Shown here piece after piece: positions 24,879 to 29,719 of a DNA stretch of 33,257 bases. The stretch covers positions 1 through 33,257 of the forward strand of contig DZCM01000019.1 of the NCBI GenBank assembly GCA_022730295.1, given 5' to 3'. The notes under the pieces are model-generated. The model ran no database searches. It was given only the letters and a program-made list of their open reading frames with translations, and was not told where the DNA came from. The position numbers and the translations under genes are program-made. The stretch's first letter is position 1, and every line of letters starts with the position of its first letter. The DNA comes from Rhodanobacter sp. Lineage in GTDB: Bacteria; Pseudomonadota; Gammaproteobacteria; Xanthomonadales; Rhodanobacteraceae.

Positions 24879-25732
24879 GCGAAAACACGTTCAATGATTA
24901 CCTCGCGCACTGGCGTTCCGCCAGTCACGCACGGGCGATTGCGTGGCTGTTCCTGCGCCCGGATGAGCGCGTCCGTTCTGGTGGCGTGGCTGCTCTGCAG
25001 CAGGAATGGCTGCGTGCGATCCGCGAAATCAGCGAGCCGCAAGTCGCGGCGGTGAAGCTCGGCTGGTGGCGCGAGGAAATGCAGCGCGCGGCGGCAGGCG
25101 AAGCGCGGCATCCGCTGACACAAGCACTGTTCGCCGACGCGAGGATCCGCGCCGTCCCGATGCCATATTGGACGGCGGGCGTGGATGCCGCGACGTTGGC
25201 GATCGGTGCGTCGCCCGCACGGGATATTGCCGCCGAGCGCGCCGCTGCGGCGCCGTTGGGGGCCGCATTCGCCGCGCAGGAAACCTGCGTGGCCTTTGGT
25301 GCCGGCGTGGCGAGCGACAAAGCGGCTGCAGTCTGGACGATCGGATTGCTCGTCGCCAACCTGCGGGCGCTCGCCAGTGAGGCCGGGCATGGACGCTCGC
25401 CGGTGCCCATGAACCTGCTGGCGCGGCATGGCCTGAGCCGTGAGGCCTTGCTCGAAGACAGCCCGGCGCGACGGTCGCTGCTGCGCGATTACACAGGTGA
25501 ACTTCAGCGCGCGCTGGCGGATGCCGCTAAAATGGACGCTCCGCTGACGCTGTTGCGTAGCGTCCAGCTGCGTAGCGACCTGGAATCCTTGCGAGCGGCA
25601 GAGCGCGACGCCGACCCGCTGCATGGCCTGCACGAGCAGCGCAGCGGATTGCGCGATGTCTTGAAAACCTGGCGCGCCGCTCGCATTTCACGCCAGATTC
25701 CGTTTGTCGAGAAACCCGATGCAACGATCTGA
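24875..25732 (+). CDS. Squalene/phytoene synthase-like protein lacking Asp-rich motifs
   Basis: A 285-residue protein starting at a GTG that overlaps the gph stop. The fold is suggested by the N-terminal RAIAWLFLRPDER (compare the RA...LF..PxxR block of synthases), the KLGWWREEMQR motif at about residues 62-72, and an all-helical composition. The two Asp-rich motifs that hold Mg2+-diphosphate in active squalene or phytoene synthases (DxxxD) are not seen, so catalysis is doubtful. A similar inactive family member, NDUFAF6, is an assembly factor of respiratory complex I in mitochondria. Its position after ubiG in the quinone neighbourhood is suggestive only. Its end overlaps folE2 by 14 bases. 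Function unknown. Confidence 0.72.
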   Translation: MSENTFNDYLAHWRSASHARAIAWLFLRPDERVRSGGVAALQQEWLRAIREISEPQVAAVKLGWWREEMQRAAAGEARHPLTQALFADARIRAVPMPYWTAGVDAATLAIGASPARDIAAERAAAAPLGAAFAAQETCVAFGAGVASDKAAAVWTIGLLVANLRALASEAGHGRSPVPMNLLARHGLSREALLEDSPARRSLLRDYTGELQRALADAAKMDAPLTLLRSVQLRSDLESLRAAERDADPLHGLHEQRSGLRDVLKTWRAARISRQIPFVEKPDATI

Positions 25733-26669
25733 CCACAACACCGCAAGCCTGCCGGATGTAGCGACTGCCGTACAGCCCGCCACTGCCGGTGCGCTGGACT
25801 GGGTCGGCATGGATGGCATCGACCTGCCGGTGCGCTGCGCGGACGGGCAGGGCGGCACGCTCAGCGTGCCGGCGCGCGTTTCGGTGCAGGTGAATCTCGC
25901 CGACCCCGCGGCGCGTGGCATCCACATGTCGCGTCTGTATCTGGCGCTGGAACAAGCGCTGGGCGAACAGCCGTTGACCCCGGCCGGCCTGCATGCGCTG
26001 CTGCGCACGCTCGTCGCTTCGCACAAGGGCCTGTCGTCGCGTGCGCGCCTGCGCGTCGAATACCGGCAAATGCTGAAGCGCCGTGCCCTGGTCAGCGACA
26101 ACGCCGGCTGGAAGGCGTATCCGGTGACCGTCGATGCGCAACTTCTGGACGACAGCTTCAGCGTGCGCCTGACCTGCGAGGTGGAATACTCATCGACGTG
26201 CCCGGCCTCCGCAGCGCTGGCGCGGCAACTGAACCAGCAGCGTTTCGACGAGGATTTTGCGGGCGTGCTGCCCTCGCAGCATGCAGTGCGCGACTGGCTG
26301 GGCAGCGAGCGCGGCATGGCCGCGACACCGCATGCGCAACGCAGTACCGCGCGCGTGCAAGTGCAATTGAAGCCGGGCTTCGACCTGCCGGTCGCGGATC
26401 TGGTCGACGCGATCGAACAGGCGCTGGCCACTCCGGTGCAGACTGCCGTCAAGCGCGAAGACGAACAGGCCTTCGCGAAGTTGAACGCCGAGAATCTGAT
26501 GTTCTGCGAGGATGCCGTGCGCCGCATTCGCAGCGCGCTTGATCAGGATCCGCGCATTGCCGGTTACCGCATCCGCGCCGCCCACCATGAGAGCCTGCAT
26601 CCGCACGATGCCGTCGCCGAAGTCAGCCAAAATCTTGGCCCAGGCGGAGAGCATTTCGGACACGGGTAA
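25719..26669 (+). CDS. folE2: GTP cyclohydrolase FolE2 (type IB)
   Basis: A 316-residue GTP cyclohydrolase of the IB class, which makes 7,8-dihydroneopterin triphosphate for folate or queuosine and unlike FolE does not depend strictly on zinc. Start at ATG 25719 (MQRSDHN). Conserved features are the GIHMSRLY block near 67-74, the SSTCPAS block with catalytic Cys161, and the C-terminal CEDAVRRIRSAL and AHHESLHPHDA. It is the fourth gene of an overlapping chain with ubiG. In many bacteria folE2 is induced under zinc limitation by Zur; no Zur site is recognised before it because it lies inside the operon. Confidence 0.94.
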   Translation: MQRSDHNTASLPDVATAVQPATAGALDWVGMDGIDLPVRCADGQGGTLSVPARVSVQVNLADPAARGIHMSRLYLALEQALGEQPLTPAGLHALLRTLVASHKGLSSRARLRVEYRQMLKRRALVSDNAGWKAYPVTVDAQLLDDSFSVRLTCEVEYSSTCPASAALARQLNQQRFDEDFAGVLPSQHAVRDWLGSERGMAATPHAQRSTARVQVQLKPGFDLPVADLVDAIEQALATPVQTAVKREDEQAFAKLNAENLMFCEDAVRRIRSALDQDPRIAGYRIRAAHHESLHPHDAVAEVSQNLGPGGEHFGHG

Positions 26670-26809
26670 GATTGGATAACAGCGGATCGCTACAGTAAGC
26701 GCGTCGCCGCGAAACAATCCCGACGAACAGGATTCAAGAAAAAAGCCTGATCCGTATTTTTTCGCTCTTGTGCGTGCCAAAAAGCTCTTGATCTCAGCTC
26801 GCCGGCACG

Positions 26810-28144
26810 TCAGCGGTCGAATTCCAGCCGCATTCCCGGCGGTGTGTCCAGAAGTTTTCCAGCGCGCGCGGCGAGGTGGCCGTTGACGAAAGTCGCGGCA
26901 ATTGAGGCGCGGAACGTATCGCCTTCGAACGGTGACCAGCCGCACTTCGAGTAAATCCCTTCGCGCCGCACGCTGCACGGTTTCGCCGGATCCACCAGCA
27001 CGAGGTCGGCATAGCCGCCTTCGCGCAAGTAACCACGGTCGACGATGCCGAACAGCGTCGCCGGCGCATGCGCGTACGCGTCGACCAGGCGCTCCAAGGT
27101 CAACCTGTCGTCGAACACGTGCTCCAGCGCCGACTGCAAGGCGAACTGGATCAACGGAATGCCGGACGGACAGCTCGTGTACGGGTTGGCCTTTTCCGAT
27201 TCCAGGTGCGGCGCGTGGTCGGTGGCGAGGATATCGAGGCGCGTGTCGACGAGACCTTGCAGCAACCCCTTGCGATCCGATGCGGCTTTCACGGCCGGAT
27301 TGCATTTGAGCTTGCCGCCCAGCGTCGCGTAGTCGGCGTCGGAATAGCGCAGGAAATGCACGCAGGTTTCTGCGGTGATGCGCTTGCTGGCGATCGGACC
27401 GGGTTCGAACATCGCGACTTCATCGGCGGTGGACACGTGCAGCACGTGCAAGCGCGTGGCGAGGCGGCGCGCGGTGTCCACTGCCCACCGGGTCGATTCA
27501 ACGCAGGCTTCGCGCGAACGGATTTCCGGGTGCAGCGACATCGGGATGGCATCGCCGTATTCGGCCTTGGCACGGTCGAGGTTGGCGTGGATGATGCGGC
27601 TGTCTTCCGCGTGCACCAGCACCGTCACCGGCGAGTCGCGAAACACTCCCTCCAACGCAACGGGGTCGCTGACAAACAGGTTCCCGGTCGATTCACACAG
27701 GAACACCTTCACGCCCGGCACGCGGCGCGGATCGAGCGCGCGGATTGCATCGAGATTGGCGTTGCCGGCGCCGAAGTAGAACGCGAAATTGGCAACCGAG
27801 TTGTGCGCAGCGATTGCGTACTTGTCTTCCAGCAACGCGTGGGTCAGTGTCGCCGGCTTGGTATTCGGCATCTCGAAGAAGCTGGTGATGCCGCCCGCGA
27901 CCGCTGCGCGCGATTCCGAGGCGATGTCGGCCTTGGCGGTGTAGCCCGGTTCGCGAAAATGCACGTGGTCGTCGATCATGCCCGGGAGCAGCCACAGGCC
28001 CGCGGCATCGAAAACCTGCTCGTCGGCACGGTTCGCAAGGCCAGCACCGATTTCCTCGATGCGCTCGCCGCAGATGCGCAGGTCGGCATGGAAACGCCGG
28101 CCTTCGTTGACGAGTTCGGCGTTGCGGATCAGCCAATGGGACAT
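26810..28144 (-). CDS. pyrC: Dihydroorotase (type I)
   Basis: A 444-residue amidohydrolase that closes carbamoyl aspartate to dihydroorotate, the third step of pyrimidine synthesis. Metal ligands are His60 and His62 in DDHVHFREPG; later blocks are EMPNTKPAT, GVKVFLCES, LHVLHVST, ATDHAPH and the C-terminal GYxADLVLVD. Length and motifs fit the longer (type I) dihydroorotase rather than the ~345-residue E. coli-type enzyme; allantoinase is the nearest alternative, but the FREPG and TDHAPH combination favours dihydroorotase. No carbamoyltransferase gene is nearby. A 193-bp region full of hairpins lies between its start and yidD. Confidence 0.94.
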   Translation of the reverse strand: MSHWLIRNAELVNEGRRFHADLRICGERIEEIGAGLANRADEQVFDAAGLWLLPGMIDDHVHFREPGYTAKADIASESRAAVAGGITSFFEMPNTKPATLTHALLEDKYAIAAHNSVANFAFYFGAGNANLDAIRALDPRRVPGVKVFLCESTGNLFVSDPVALEGVFRDSPVTVLVHAEDSRIIHANLDRAKAEYGDAIPMSLHPEIRSREACVESTRWAVDTARRLATRLHVLHVSTADEVAMFEPGPIASKRITAETCVHFLRYSDADYATLGGKLKCNPAVKAASDRKGLLQGLVDTRLDILATDHAPHLESEKANPYTSCPSGIPLIQFALQSALEHVFDDRLTLERLVDAYAHAPATLFGIVDRGYLREGGYADLVLVDPAKPCSVRREGIYSKCGWSPFEGDTFRASIAATFVNGHLAARAGKLLDTPPGMRLEFDR

Positions 28145-28180
28145 GCGCGGTTCCTGCGGGCGGGTGTAGGCAAGTGGGTT

Positions 28181-28325
28181 GTTGAAAGAGTGCTGTCCTG
28201 CACTTTTTCAACGCGCCGAGTCCGGCACATGTCCGGACCCGGCTTCGCGGATCAAGCGCTTATGGCGCTTGATCCGCGGCGGGTCATCCGTGACCCGCGC
28301 CAGCAGGGTGTTTTCAACACCCTGC
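28181..28325. repeat. Cluster of five consecutive hairpins between yidD and pyrC
   Basis: Five stem-loops follow one another in 145 bp: 28181-28193/28200-28212 (13 bp, one G-T type mismatch); 28220-28225/28233-28238 (6 bp); 28246-28259/28265-28278 (14 bp, perfect); 28279-28286/28291-28298 (8 bp, perfect); 28303-28312/28316-28325 (10 bp, perfect, loop TTC). Only a few bases separate the stems. No coding region is supported here. It could be an intergenic palindromic repeat, or act in mRNA as a terminator or stability element between the two minus-strand genes. Confidence 0.75.
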
Positions 28326-28337
28326 AAGTGCAACAGT

Positions 28338-28592
28338 TTATTCGACGTCGTCGCCATGCCGGCAGCGTCGCAGCGTGAAATGGCCGGGCACGGGATCCAT
28401 GCCGCCTTCGCACAACGGCTGGCAGCGCAGGATACGCCATAGCGTGAGCACGCTGCCCCGAAATGGACCGAAGCGCGCGATTGCAATACGTGCATAAGTC
28501 GAGCAACTCGGGTAAAAACGACAGCGCGCACCGAGCAGGGGGCTCAGCAGGCGCTTGTAGGCGGCAATCAGGAAAAGCAGGATGCGGGTCAA
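28338..28592 (-). CDS. yidD: Membrane protein insertion efficiency factor YidD
   Basis: An 84-residue protein that assists YidC/Sec-dependent membrane insertion. An amphipathic hydrophobic start ([18 protein letters not shown]) is followed by the family signature [12 protein letters not shown] and the Cys pair in [15 protein letters not shown]. The start is a TTG at 28592, giving MTRILLF; no better start or ribosome site is visible. Usually yidD sits between rnpA and yidC near the replication origin; here it is isolated from them, upstream of pyrC. Confidence 0.92.
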
Positions 28593-28711
28593 GACAGGCA
28601 GGTCGTGTGTGGGAGGGCGGGTTCGCTTCGGGGCGGCAAAATTGGTTGCCCGGGCGGGGTGACTACGCTATAACACGCGGTCGCATCTCCACAATATCGA
28701 GTGCACAGGAC

Positions 28712-29719
28712 ATGGCAAAAGCGAAGCGCGCCGCCGCCAAGAGCGGTGGCAAGAAAGCCAAGCCCGCGGCCAAACCCGCGAAGGCCAAATCCGCGAAGAC
28801 TGCGACTACGAAGGTAGTCCGCAAGCCCGCGGCCAAAGTCAAGCCCAAGGCCAAGCCCAAGGCCAAGCCCAAGCCCAAGGCTGCCGCCATGCCCGCGCGC
28901 AAGCCTGCGGCGAAGGCTGCCAAGACCTCCCGTGCAAAACATCCCACCAAGACAAACAAGCCAGCAAAAGGTACGGTCAAGCCGGTGAAGAAACCGAATA
29001 CGAAGAAAGTCACGAAAGTCGCGGCCAAGAAGCCGGTAGCAGCGCCCAAGCCGCCGAAGCGCGCGCCTGTCGCCAAGGGTTCAAAGCACGTTGCGGTGGC
29101 GACACCGGTGCCAGCTGCGGTGAAATCCGGGCATGGCCATGCAACGGTATCCAGCCATGGCGCGCCGCACGTGGCGCACCAGCCGGTACGCAAGCCGGCC
29201 CACGTCCGGCCAGTCGGTGGCGTTGCCGCGCGCCTCAGCGTCGCCGCTGGCGGTGACGAGCAGACCATCACCAAGGAAGATGGCCGCTACGCGCTGCCGG
29301 CGACGGTCAACATCGATTTGCCGAAGGGCTACAAACCCGGCGGCAAAGAGGAATACATGAATCCGAAGCAGCTGGCGTACTTCCGCCAGAAGCTGAAGAA
29401 GTGGCGCGACCAGTTGGTCGAGGAGTCGCGCCAGACCATGGAAAACCTGCGCGAGGAAGTGCGCGATGTCGGCGACGATGCCGAGCGCGCCACGCGTGAA
29501 ACCGAGAACTCGCTGGAGCTGCGCACCCGCGACCGCTACCGCAAGCTGATCTCCAAGATCGAGAAAGCCTTGCGCAAGATCGAGGAAGGCCGCTACGGCT
29601 ATTGCGAGGAAACCGACGAGGAAATCGGCATCGATCGCCTCGAGGCGCGTCCGATCGCCACCCTGTCGCTGGATGCGCAGGAGCGCCGCGAGCATCTGCA
29701 GAAGCAGATGGGCGATTGA
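28712..29719 (+). CDS. dksA: DksA-family RNA polymerase-binding factor with long lysine-rich N-terminal tail
   Basis: A 335-residue protein, against about 151 in E. coli. The ATG at 28712 (MAKAKRAA) is preferred; the longer frame from 28463 overlaps yidD. Residues 1-~180 are Lys/Ala/Pro-rich low-complexity sequence with PKAK repeats (43-56), resembling histone H1-like tails. Residues ~186-335 are the DksA core: a coiled coil with tip DDAERA (255-260), then YCEETDEEIGIDRLEARP. Of the four zinc-binding cysteines only Cys298 remains; the others are Thr301, Ser319 and Ala322, the pattern reported for zinc-free DksA2-type proteins. The tip has Glu258 where E. coli has the important Asp74. DksA acts with ppGpp in the RNA polymerase secondary channel. 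The tail might bind DNA or RNA; that is inference. Confidence 0.93.
   Translation: MAKAKRAAAKSGGKKAKPAAKPAKAKSAKTATTKVVRKPAAKVKPKAKPKAKPKPKAAAMPARKPAAKAAKTSRAKHPTKTNKPAKGTVKPVKKPNTKKVTKVAAKKPVAAPKPPKRAPVAKGSKHVAVATPVPAAVKSGHGHATVSSHGAPHVAHQPVRKPAHVRPVGGVAARLSVAAGGDEQTITKEDGRYALPATVNIDLPKGYKPGGKEEYMNPKQLAYFRQKLKKWRDQLVEESRQTMENLREEVRDVGDDAERATRETENSLELRTRDRYRKLISKIEKALRKIEEGRYGYCEETDEEIGIDRLEARPIATLSLDAQERREHLQKQMGD

Follow-up and report, generated by a model that had tools for sequence, protein, structure and literature searches.

Why should a DksA protein begin with some 180 residues made largely of lysine, alanine and proline, does this tail have anything to do with the degenerate zinc site of the same protein, and what might it do at a polymerase? 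Few bacterial transcription factors have been studied as thoroughly as DksA, an RNA-polymerase secondary-channel factor that acts with ppGpp and adjusts the polymerase in starvation. The window, i.e., the whole stretch of 33,257 nt analysed here (contig DZCM01000019.1 of the Rhodanobacter sp. assembly GCA_022730295.1), holds a dksA gene with the following parts:

28646..28674, + strand: dksA promoter (-35 TTGCCC 28646-28651, 17-nt spacer, -10 TATAAC 28669-28674)
28712-29719, + strand: dksA open reading frame, 335 aa plus stop
28712..29251, + strand: Lys/Ala/Pro-rich tail, residues 1-180 (from composition and predicted disorder)
29252..29329, + strand: linker, residues 181-206, with a DEQTITKEDGRYALPATVNIDLPKG-type motif kept in most genes of the family
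29330..29716, + strand: DksA core, residues 207-335 (from TIGR02420, the 1tjl match, the model and a fold search)
29468..29491, + strand: coiled-coil tip VGDDAERA, residues 253-260 (from column counts)
29603..29680, + strand: degenerate zinc site C298, T301, S319, A322, then Q323 (from alignment to the E. coli columns)

By profile match and predicted structure, the gene product is a member of the DksA family. The NCBIfam equivalog TIGR02420 (dksA) matched the core at 144.7 bits (cut-off 115.5) over model positions 1-110 of 110, Pfam DksA_N and zf-dskA_traR both match it, and its best solved relative is E. coli DksA (1tjl, E 1.4e-32). The AlphaFold model places a coiled coil at residues 218-250 / 256-292, a globular domain and a C-terminal helix at 320-333, with pLDDT blocks mostly of 76-93 in the core and of 64-70 around the tip. 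A fold search with this model returned 1tjl and 5vsw as best matches (TM-score by target 0.78 for 1tjl) as well as 4ijj, the structure of the zinc-free DksA2 (TM-score by target 0.85). By homology, the protein would be expected to act on the polymerase and with ppGpp. Its named closest relatives come from metagenome assemblies and from Dyella, Rhodanobacter, Frateuria, Luteibacter and Fulvimonas (Rhodanobacteraceae, Lysobacterales).

A first-pass annotation had described about 180 Lys/Ala/Pro-rich residues ahead of a DksA core with zinc ligands Cys-Thr-Ser-Ala and with Glu258 at the position of E. coli D74, and residue counts and alignment agree with each of these points. The E. coli ligands C114, C117, C135 and C138 correspond to C298, T301, S319 and A322, i.e., C-T-S-A in place of a four-Cys zinc finger (114, 117, 135, 138). 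We followed these columns through a Lysobacterales set of 82 core rows, 58 of them taken by kinship and 24 named (L199-L222, some with vaguer or other titles; 24 of 80 named loci entered the core tree). Rows left out were a duplicate (L016, of L002), paralogs or fragments (L061, L063, L064, L070-L072) and contig-cut copies (L062, L065). Column 117 is Thr and column 138 Ala in all 82 rows, and column 135 is Ser, Cys or Thr in 44, 28 and 10 of them, so that every row reads C-T-S/C/T-A. By model and sequence, the protein has the complete DksA fold but lacks part of the zinc ligands, as in DksA of the zinc-independent (DksA2) type, and the core most likely works without zinc. Zinc-free DksA is in itself already known; working examples are described for P. 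aeruginosa (DksA2), R. sphaeroides (RSP2654) and S. meliloti (SMc00469) (PMC9239242).

At the tip, D71, D74 and A76 of E. coli correspond to D255, E258 and A260, and the DxxDxA motif, which is reported to be needed for DksA activity, D74 included (PMC9239242), is departed from at the D74 position alone. D71 and A76 are kept in 82/82 rows of the Lysobacterales set, and 79/82 carry Glu at 74. Because this charge-keeping change is fixed in the lineage, E258 gives no sign of lost function as far as sequence can tell, and DksA of X. citri is reported to be required for full pathogenicity (PMC6804348). Glu at the tip was also seen in f102 and in one copy from f81. In E. coli, ppGpp at site 2 is described as contacted by R91, L95, K98, R129 and K139 (PMC7676912); the first four are kept here and K139 is replaced by Gln (Q323). 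In the Lysobacterales set R91, L95 and R129 are kept in 82/82 rows and K98 in 79/82, and 139 is Gln in 82/82. Nothing on the tip and ppGpp residues was found in PMC7822876.

The tail itself holds 41 K, 8 R, 8 H, 44 A and 24 P and neither D nor E in residues 1-180, for a net charge of +49. Secondary structure is absent from it in the AlphaFold model and its pLDDT block means are 39-62, and it is thus predicted to be intrinsically disordered; two short strands follow in the linker, at 187-194. Such a disordered Lys/Ala/Pro tail with nearly no acidic residues is what characterizes histone-H1-like and AlgP-like tails. KPKA-type DNA repeats with 12-nt spacing run inside the tail, and the KPAAK codon pattern has 11 occurrences in the organism's own genome, compared with 5 for the reversed control. 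Three of these 11 occurrences lie within dksA, and of the other eight just one (L223) falls where Lys exceeds 12% of the residues (35%). These counts argue that the composition of the tail is not due to chance. The frame at L223 (around position 1500; contig C4 of the own genome, near 14138) is Lys/Ala-rich, comprises 182 codons with 35% Lys near the motif, and perhaps encodes a small histone-H1-like protein.

Is the tail translated at all? The tail could lie outside the protein, with the real start near residue 180-190 and an ordinary short DksA as product; a start near 29260 is the alternative against which the first-pass annotation had set its reading, and the old annotation of 147 aa for the X. 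euvesicatoria gene (PMC5559785) is of this kind. This is very improbable. The -10 element ends 37 nt before ATG 28712, and a pattern written from the promoter precedes the tail start in 36/36 genes of the same family, at 32-46 nt. The pattern recurs at 38-47 nt in 3/3 f2, 3/3 f3 and 1/1 f6 genes and at 66 and 88 nt in 2/3 f4 genes, and is present in 1/13 of the mostly tail-free f5 and f7-f12, for some of which distances were taken from the core, a tail start being absent. A generic promoter scan omitted the dksA promoter because it requires T at the last -10 position. Protein-level selection in the tails of relatives (below) likewise speaks against an untranslated tail, as do published data on X. 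euvesicatoria dksA, where peptides, the transcription start and start-codon mutants place the start upstream of the 147-aa annotation and the detected length of DksA is 256 aa (PMC5559785). Two of the three f2 genes (L053, L056), f2 being by our inference the Xanthomonas family, have a GTG just before the core, at exactly 147 codons from the end; therefore the X. euvesicatoria peptides most likely extend into such a tail by about 109 residues, and the region that they cover most likely falls in a tail of this kind. On promoter, selection and these peptides we rejected a start at residue ~180; ATG 28463, which would open a 418-aa frame, was rejected because it is located upstream of the promoter. 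The tail is translated, and the promoter supports ATG 28712 as its start. Other X. euvesicatoria proteins are also listed as longer than annotated in the same source, namely GrpE (403 vs 172 aa) and Rho (599 vs 420 aa) (PMC5559785, Table 1).

A processed DksA variant is described beside the full-length protein in X. euvesicatoria (PMC5559785), so the tail may be partly clipped off. From this one might picture the tail as a regulatory handle, with DksA tethered or free depending on proteolytic trimming or lysine modification. We regard this as improbable, and the processed form could stem from degradation of a disordered tail during extraction.

Selection on the tail was assessed in 92 distinct long-tailed genes, from which 23 disjoint close pairs were compared in frame-blind DNA alignments. 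Mismatches in the tail fall on the three codon positions as 539/488/1139. Across the 23 pairs, Lys and Arg were exchanged 26 times and Lys and Glu once; either exchange is a single A to G or G to A change, an equal mutational step, and positive charge is therefore selected. Protein-guided alignments gave a pN/pS ratio of 0.42 for the tail and 0.04 for the core, in a set that counted one pair twice (L038/L054 = L162/L164). Alignments of the low-complexity tail are uncertain, with 92 of 264 gaps not multiples of three, which we read as misplacement in repeats. Tail length ranges from 127 to 304 aa among the 92 genes. These data support that the tail is kept under selection for positive charge and not for sequence. 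The 12-nt repeats, the large variation in length and a pN/pS roughly tenfold higher in the tail than in the core would also be expected from a near-neutral low-complexity expansion through codon-repeat slippage, tolerated as soluble and positive and with no specific job. The third-position excess and the 26 Lys/Arg exchanges vs one Lys/Glu exchange weigh against this reading, which we consider rather unlikely; the distribution of tails bears on it further.

To count as a tail in the survey, a stretch had to comprise 60 or more residues, of which 12% or more are Lys. The check proposed in the first-pass annotation, a survey of Lysobacterales DksA, yielded 45 Lys/Ala-rich tails (K 19.5, R 4.3, A 26.5, P 13.0, D+E 3.1%), yet there are tail-free families in the order too. 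In f7-f11 the same core stands without a tail, as it does in two of the three f5 genes, and the tail is thus dispensable for basic DksA action. Some family members are poor in lysine (L045, 8% K; L059, 11% K). Outside the order we sampled 70 DksA genes from 229 gammaproteobacterial genomes, comprising the 30 best-scoring and 40 loci with mostly long frames, the latter chosen by eye among the matches listed, with some frames of 231-239 aa left out. Forty-seven of the 70 are tailed, 13/30 among the best-scoring and 34/40 among those picked mostly for long frames. Pooled, these 47 tails contain K 29, A 22, T 11 and P 8%, with D+E at 2.4%. All but one (46/47) sit on a four-Cys DksA; the exception is L138. 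Asp occupies position 74 in 70/70 of these genes, and 69 have the four Cys and K139, the one without being again the tailed L138. We therefore rejected the idea that the tail is peculiar to Lysobacterales, since tails occur on DksA of other Gammaproteobacteria.

A link between tail and zinc loss was judged on a tree of 153 cores from which the ligand, tip and 139 columns had been removed, a tree with few columns and many unresolved forks. Zinc state changes once on this tree and tip state once; the tail label changes at least 22 times, a figure somewhat inflated as L045 and L059, with less than 12% Lys, were counted as untailed. Start codons were chosen by script; L032, L027, L034 and L059 are among the rows set slightly upstream, and L024 was labelled tailed by hand, its Lys-rich tail being evident and the script-chosen start having dropped it. 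Seven independent pairs on starred branches differ in their tail, and in none of them does the zinc state differ. Zinc-site loss spans Lysobacterales, with or without a tail. On this tree and these pairs we rejected the idea that tail and zinc loss go together; the data support that the two are independent. Of the first-pass reading, a zinc-independent polymerase factor with an arm, the translated cationic tail and a core that is most likely zinc-free (82/82 rows, a 4ijj-like model) stand, and the suggestion that the two form a meaningful combination falls, as zinc state changes once and the tail at least 22 times among the 153 cores, and tails are found on four-Cys, D74 DksA. The many changes of the tail label and the tail-free families of the order would suit a near-neutral expansion; the scarcity of acidic residues (3.1% in 45 Lysobacterales and 2.4% in 47 other gammaproteobacterial genes) and the recurrence of tails on DksA in many families argue against it.

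The single zinc change is valid for the 153-core sample only, because later samples hold zinc-free DksA elsewhere, and the class sample had favoured high-scoring, four-Cys DksA. Zinc-free DksA occurs in further gammaproteobacterial families (e.g. f102, f53, f118, f130), some with tails, and in three loci from other classes. Outside the class, open frames are shorter than 240 aa save one of 307 among the matches listed, and a Lys-rich tail was not found in the three longest non-class frames read (L266-L268). A zinc-free DksA with a long N-terminal region and Asp at the tip was observed in L264 (G166) and L265 (G282), both of family f118; the region is Lys/Ala/Pro-rich in L264.

What, then, might the tail do? 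We favour, at a probability of roughly 0.55, a zinc-free DksA core working at the polymerase with a disordered tail of about 180 residues that is translated, selected for charge and acts as a polycationic nucleic-acid tether. The core would bind the RNA polymerase secondary channel as in E. coli, by homology. The tail, judged by its composition only, would most likely tether the protein to nucleic acid, i.e., to nucleoid DNA and perhaps to nascent or ribosomal RNA, and through tethering DksA might become locally more concentrated at transcribing polymerase and dwell there longer. AlgP provides the closest tested precedent, in that KPAA-repeat peptides are reported to bind DNA in vitro (PMC9239181). 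The same P. aeruginosa protein lends some plausibility to another target: AlgP, whose KPAA-rich tail the tail here resembles in composition, is described as associated with polyphosphate granules and as needing that tail for granule spacing (PMC9239181). A polyphosphate- or condensate-binding arm would recruit DksA to granules or RNA-rich condensates in starvation and couple the stringent response to polyphosphate. We think this unlikely, though composition cannot separate polyphosphate from DNA or RNA binding. Beyond the nucleic-acid tether proposed for this gene, we tentatively suggest, with somewhat less than even confidence, that cationic N-terminal tails are a recurrent, selected DksA module across Gammaproteobacteria that ties the protein to nucleic acid or polyphosphate, whereby the dose of DksA at the polymerase would track nucleoid or polyphosphate state.

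The genes upstream of dksA in the window are the following:

25704..26669, + strand: folE2, GTP cyclohydrolase FolE2 (NF010200, 311.6 bits)
26810..28144, - strand: dihydroorotase, PyrC type (NF006688, 625 bits)
28338..28592, - strand: yidD (TIGR00278), divergent neighbour of dksA

The first-pass annotation had advised looking for a second, four-Cys dksA. A PF01258 search of the organism's own genome assembly (2.27 Mb, 82% complete) found no second full-length DksA, and the other match is a short four-Cys frame of TraR-like type that breaks off at the end of a contig; because the genome is 82% complete, this does not prove absence. A match over the cut-off is present in 57/61 relatives, and all those read are C-T-x-A (fragment G059:C32 left out); some genomes also hold more distant four-Cys relatives (e.g. 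L070, L071). Second, zinc-free DksA paralogs were noted in two relatives (L060 in G011, a 253-codon frame, and L064 in G008), L060 with an Arg-rich N-terminal stretch of 91 residues.

At E <= 1e-5, TIGR00857 matches no gene of the own genome other than this dihydroorotase, and the genome also has a PF01227 GTP cyclohydrolase. Within flanks of limited length, yidD, often along with the dihydroorotase, lies beside dksA in loci of f1-f11, and neither was found beside it in the two f12 loci or in L011 and L019. By hand count, folE2 lies on the same contig within 15 kb of dksA in 30/37 genomes of the family and in G037, G039 and G059. The cluster of folE2, dihydroorotase, yidD and zinc-free dksA (25704-29719) recalls the Zur-regulated FolE2/PyrC/DksA2 set of Pseudomonas. 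A Zur regulon with FolE2, a PyrC paralog and a DksA paralog is described for P. fluorescens, and DksA paralogs behind putative Zur sites are described as lacking the four Cys (PMC2770081). Zur-like palindromes in the window are no more frequent than chance and no Zur site was found there, and the gene does not fit the DksA2 pattern of a Zur-regulated second copy beside a four-Cys DksA. Descent of the lineage's DksA from such a zinc-sparing set is speculation on our part.

Should tailed DksA be common, what is said of the affinity and abundance of DksA and of its coupling to ppGpp may not hold for many Gammaproteobacteria, Lysobacterales among them. As a module the tail is easy to delete, and the order supplies natural variants at two functional positions, D74E and K139Q. 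In the open-licence literature, as far as its accessible parts go, we found no published Lys-rich, H1-like, low-complexity or disordered DksA tail, which is not proof of absence, and among the matches listed on the N-terminal extension of Xanthomonas DksA no Lys-rich tail is described.

Among known systems, E. coli DksA (1tjl, 5vsw, 7khi) shares the core fold, with 49-50% identity over fold alignments, D71 and A76 of the tip, and R91, L95, K98 and R129 of site 2. It differs in being a 151-residue chain without such a tail and in having four zinc Cys, D74 and K139, where C-T-S-A, Glu and Gln are found here; natural DksA-family chains found among solved structures comprise 132-151 residues. P. 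aeruginosa DksA2 (4ijj) shares a globular fold without a four-Cys finger, but has 136 residues and no such tail, D at the tip and K at 139. DksA2 is described as an additional paralog whose expression is confined to zinc starvation (PMC9213440), whereas the DksA here is the only full-length copy found in an 82%-complete genome and has a standard-looking promoter. DksA of X. euvesicatoria belongs to the same order and shares an N-terminal extension, although the accessible part of that account is silent on the composition and function of the extension and on the zinc site (PMC5559785). A likeness in composition lies in the AlgP and PhaF tails of Pseudomonas, which are likewise described as disordered and Lys/Pro/Ala-rich and have been likened to the histone H1 C-terminus (PMC9239181). 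Those tails are C-terminal and sit on other proteins, whereas the one here is N-terminal and belongs to a polymerase factor, with 3 KPAA units vs the 25 perfect repeats given for the AlgP tail region.
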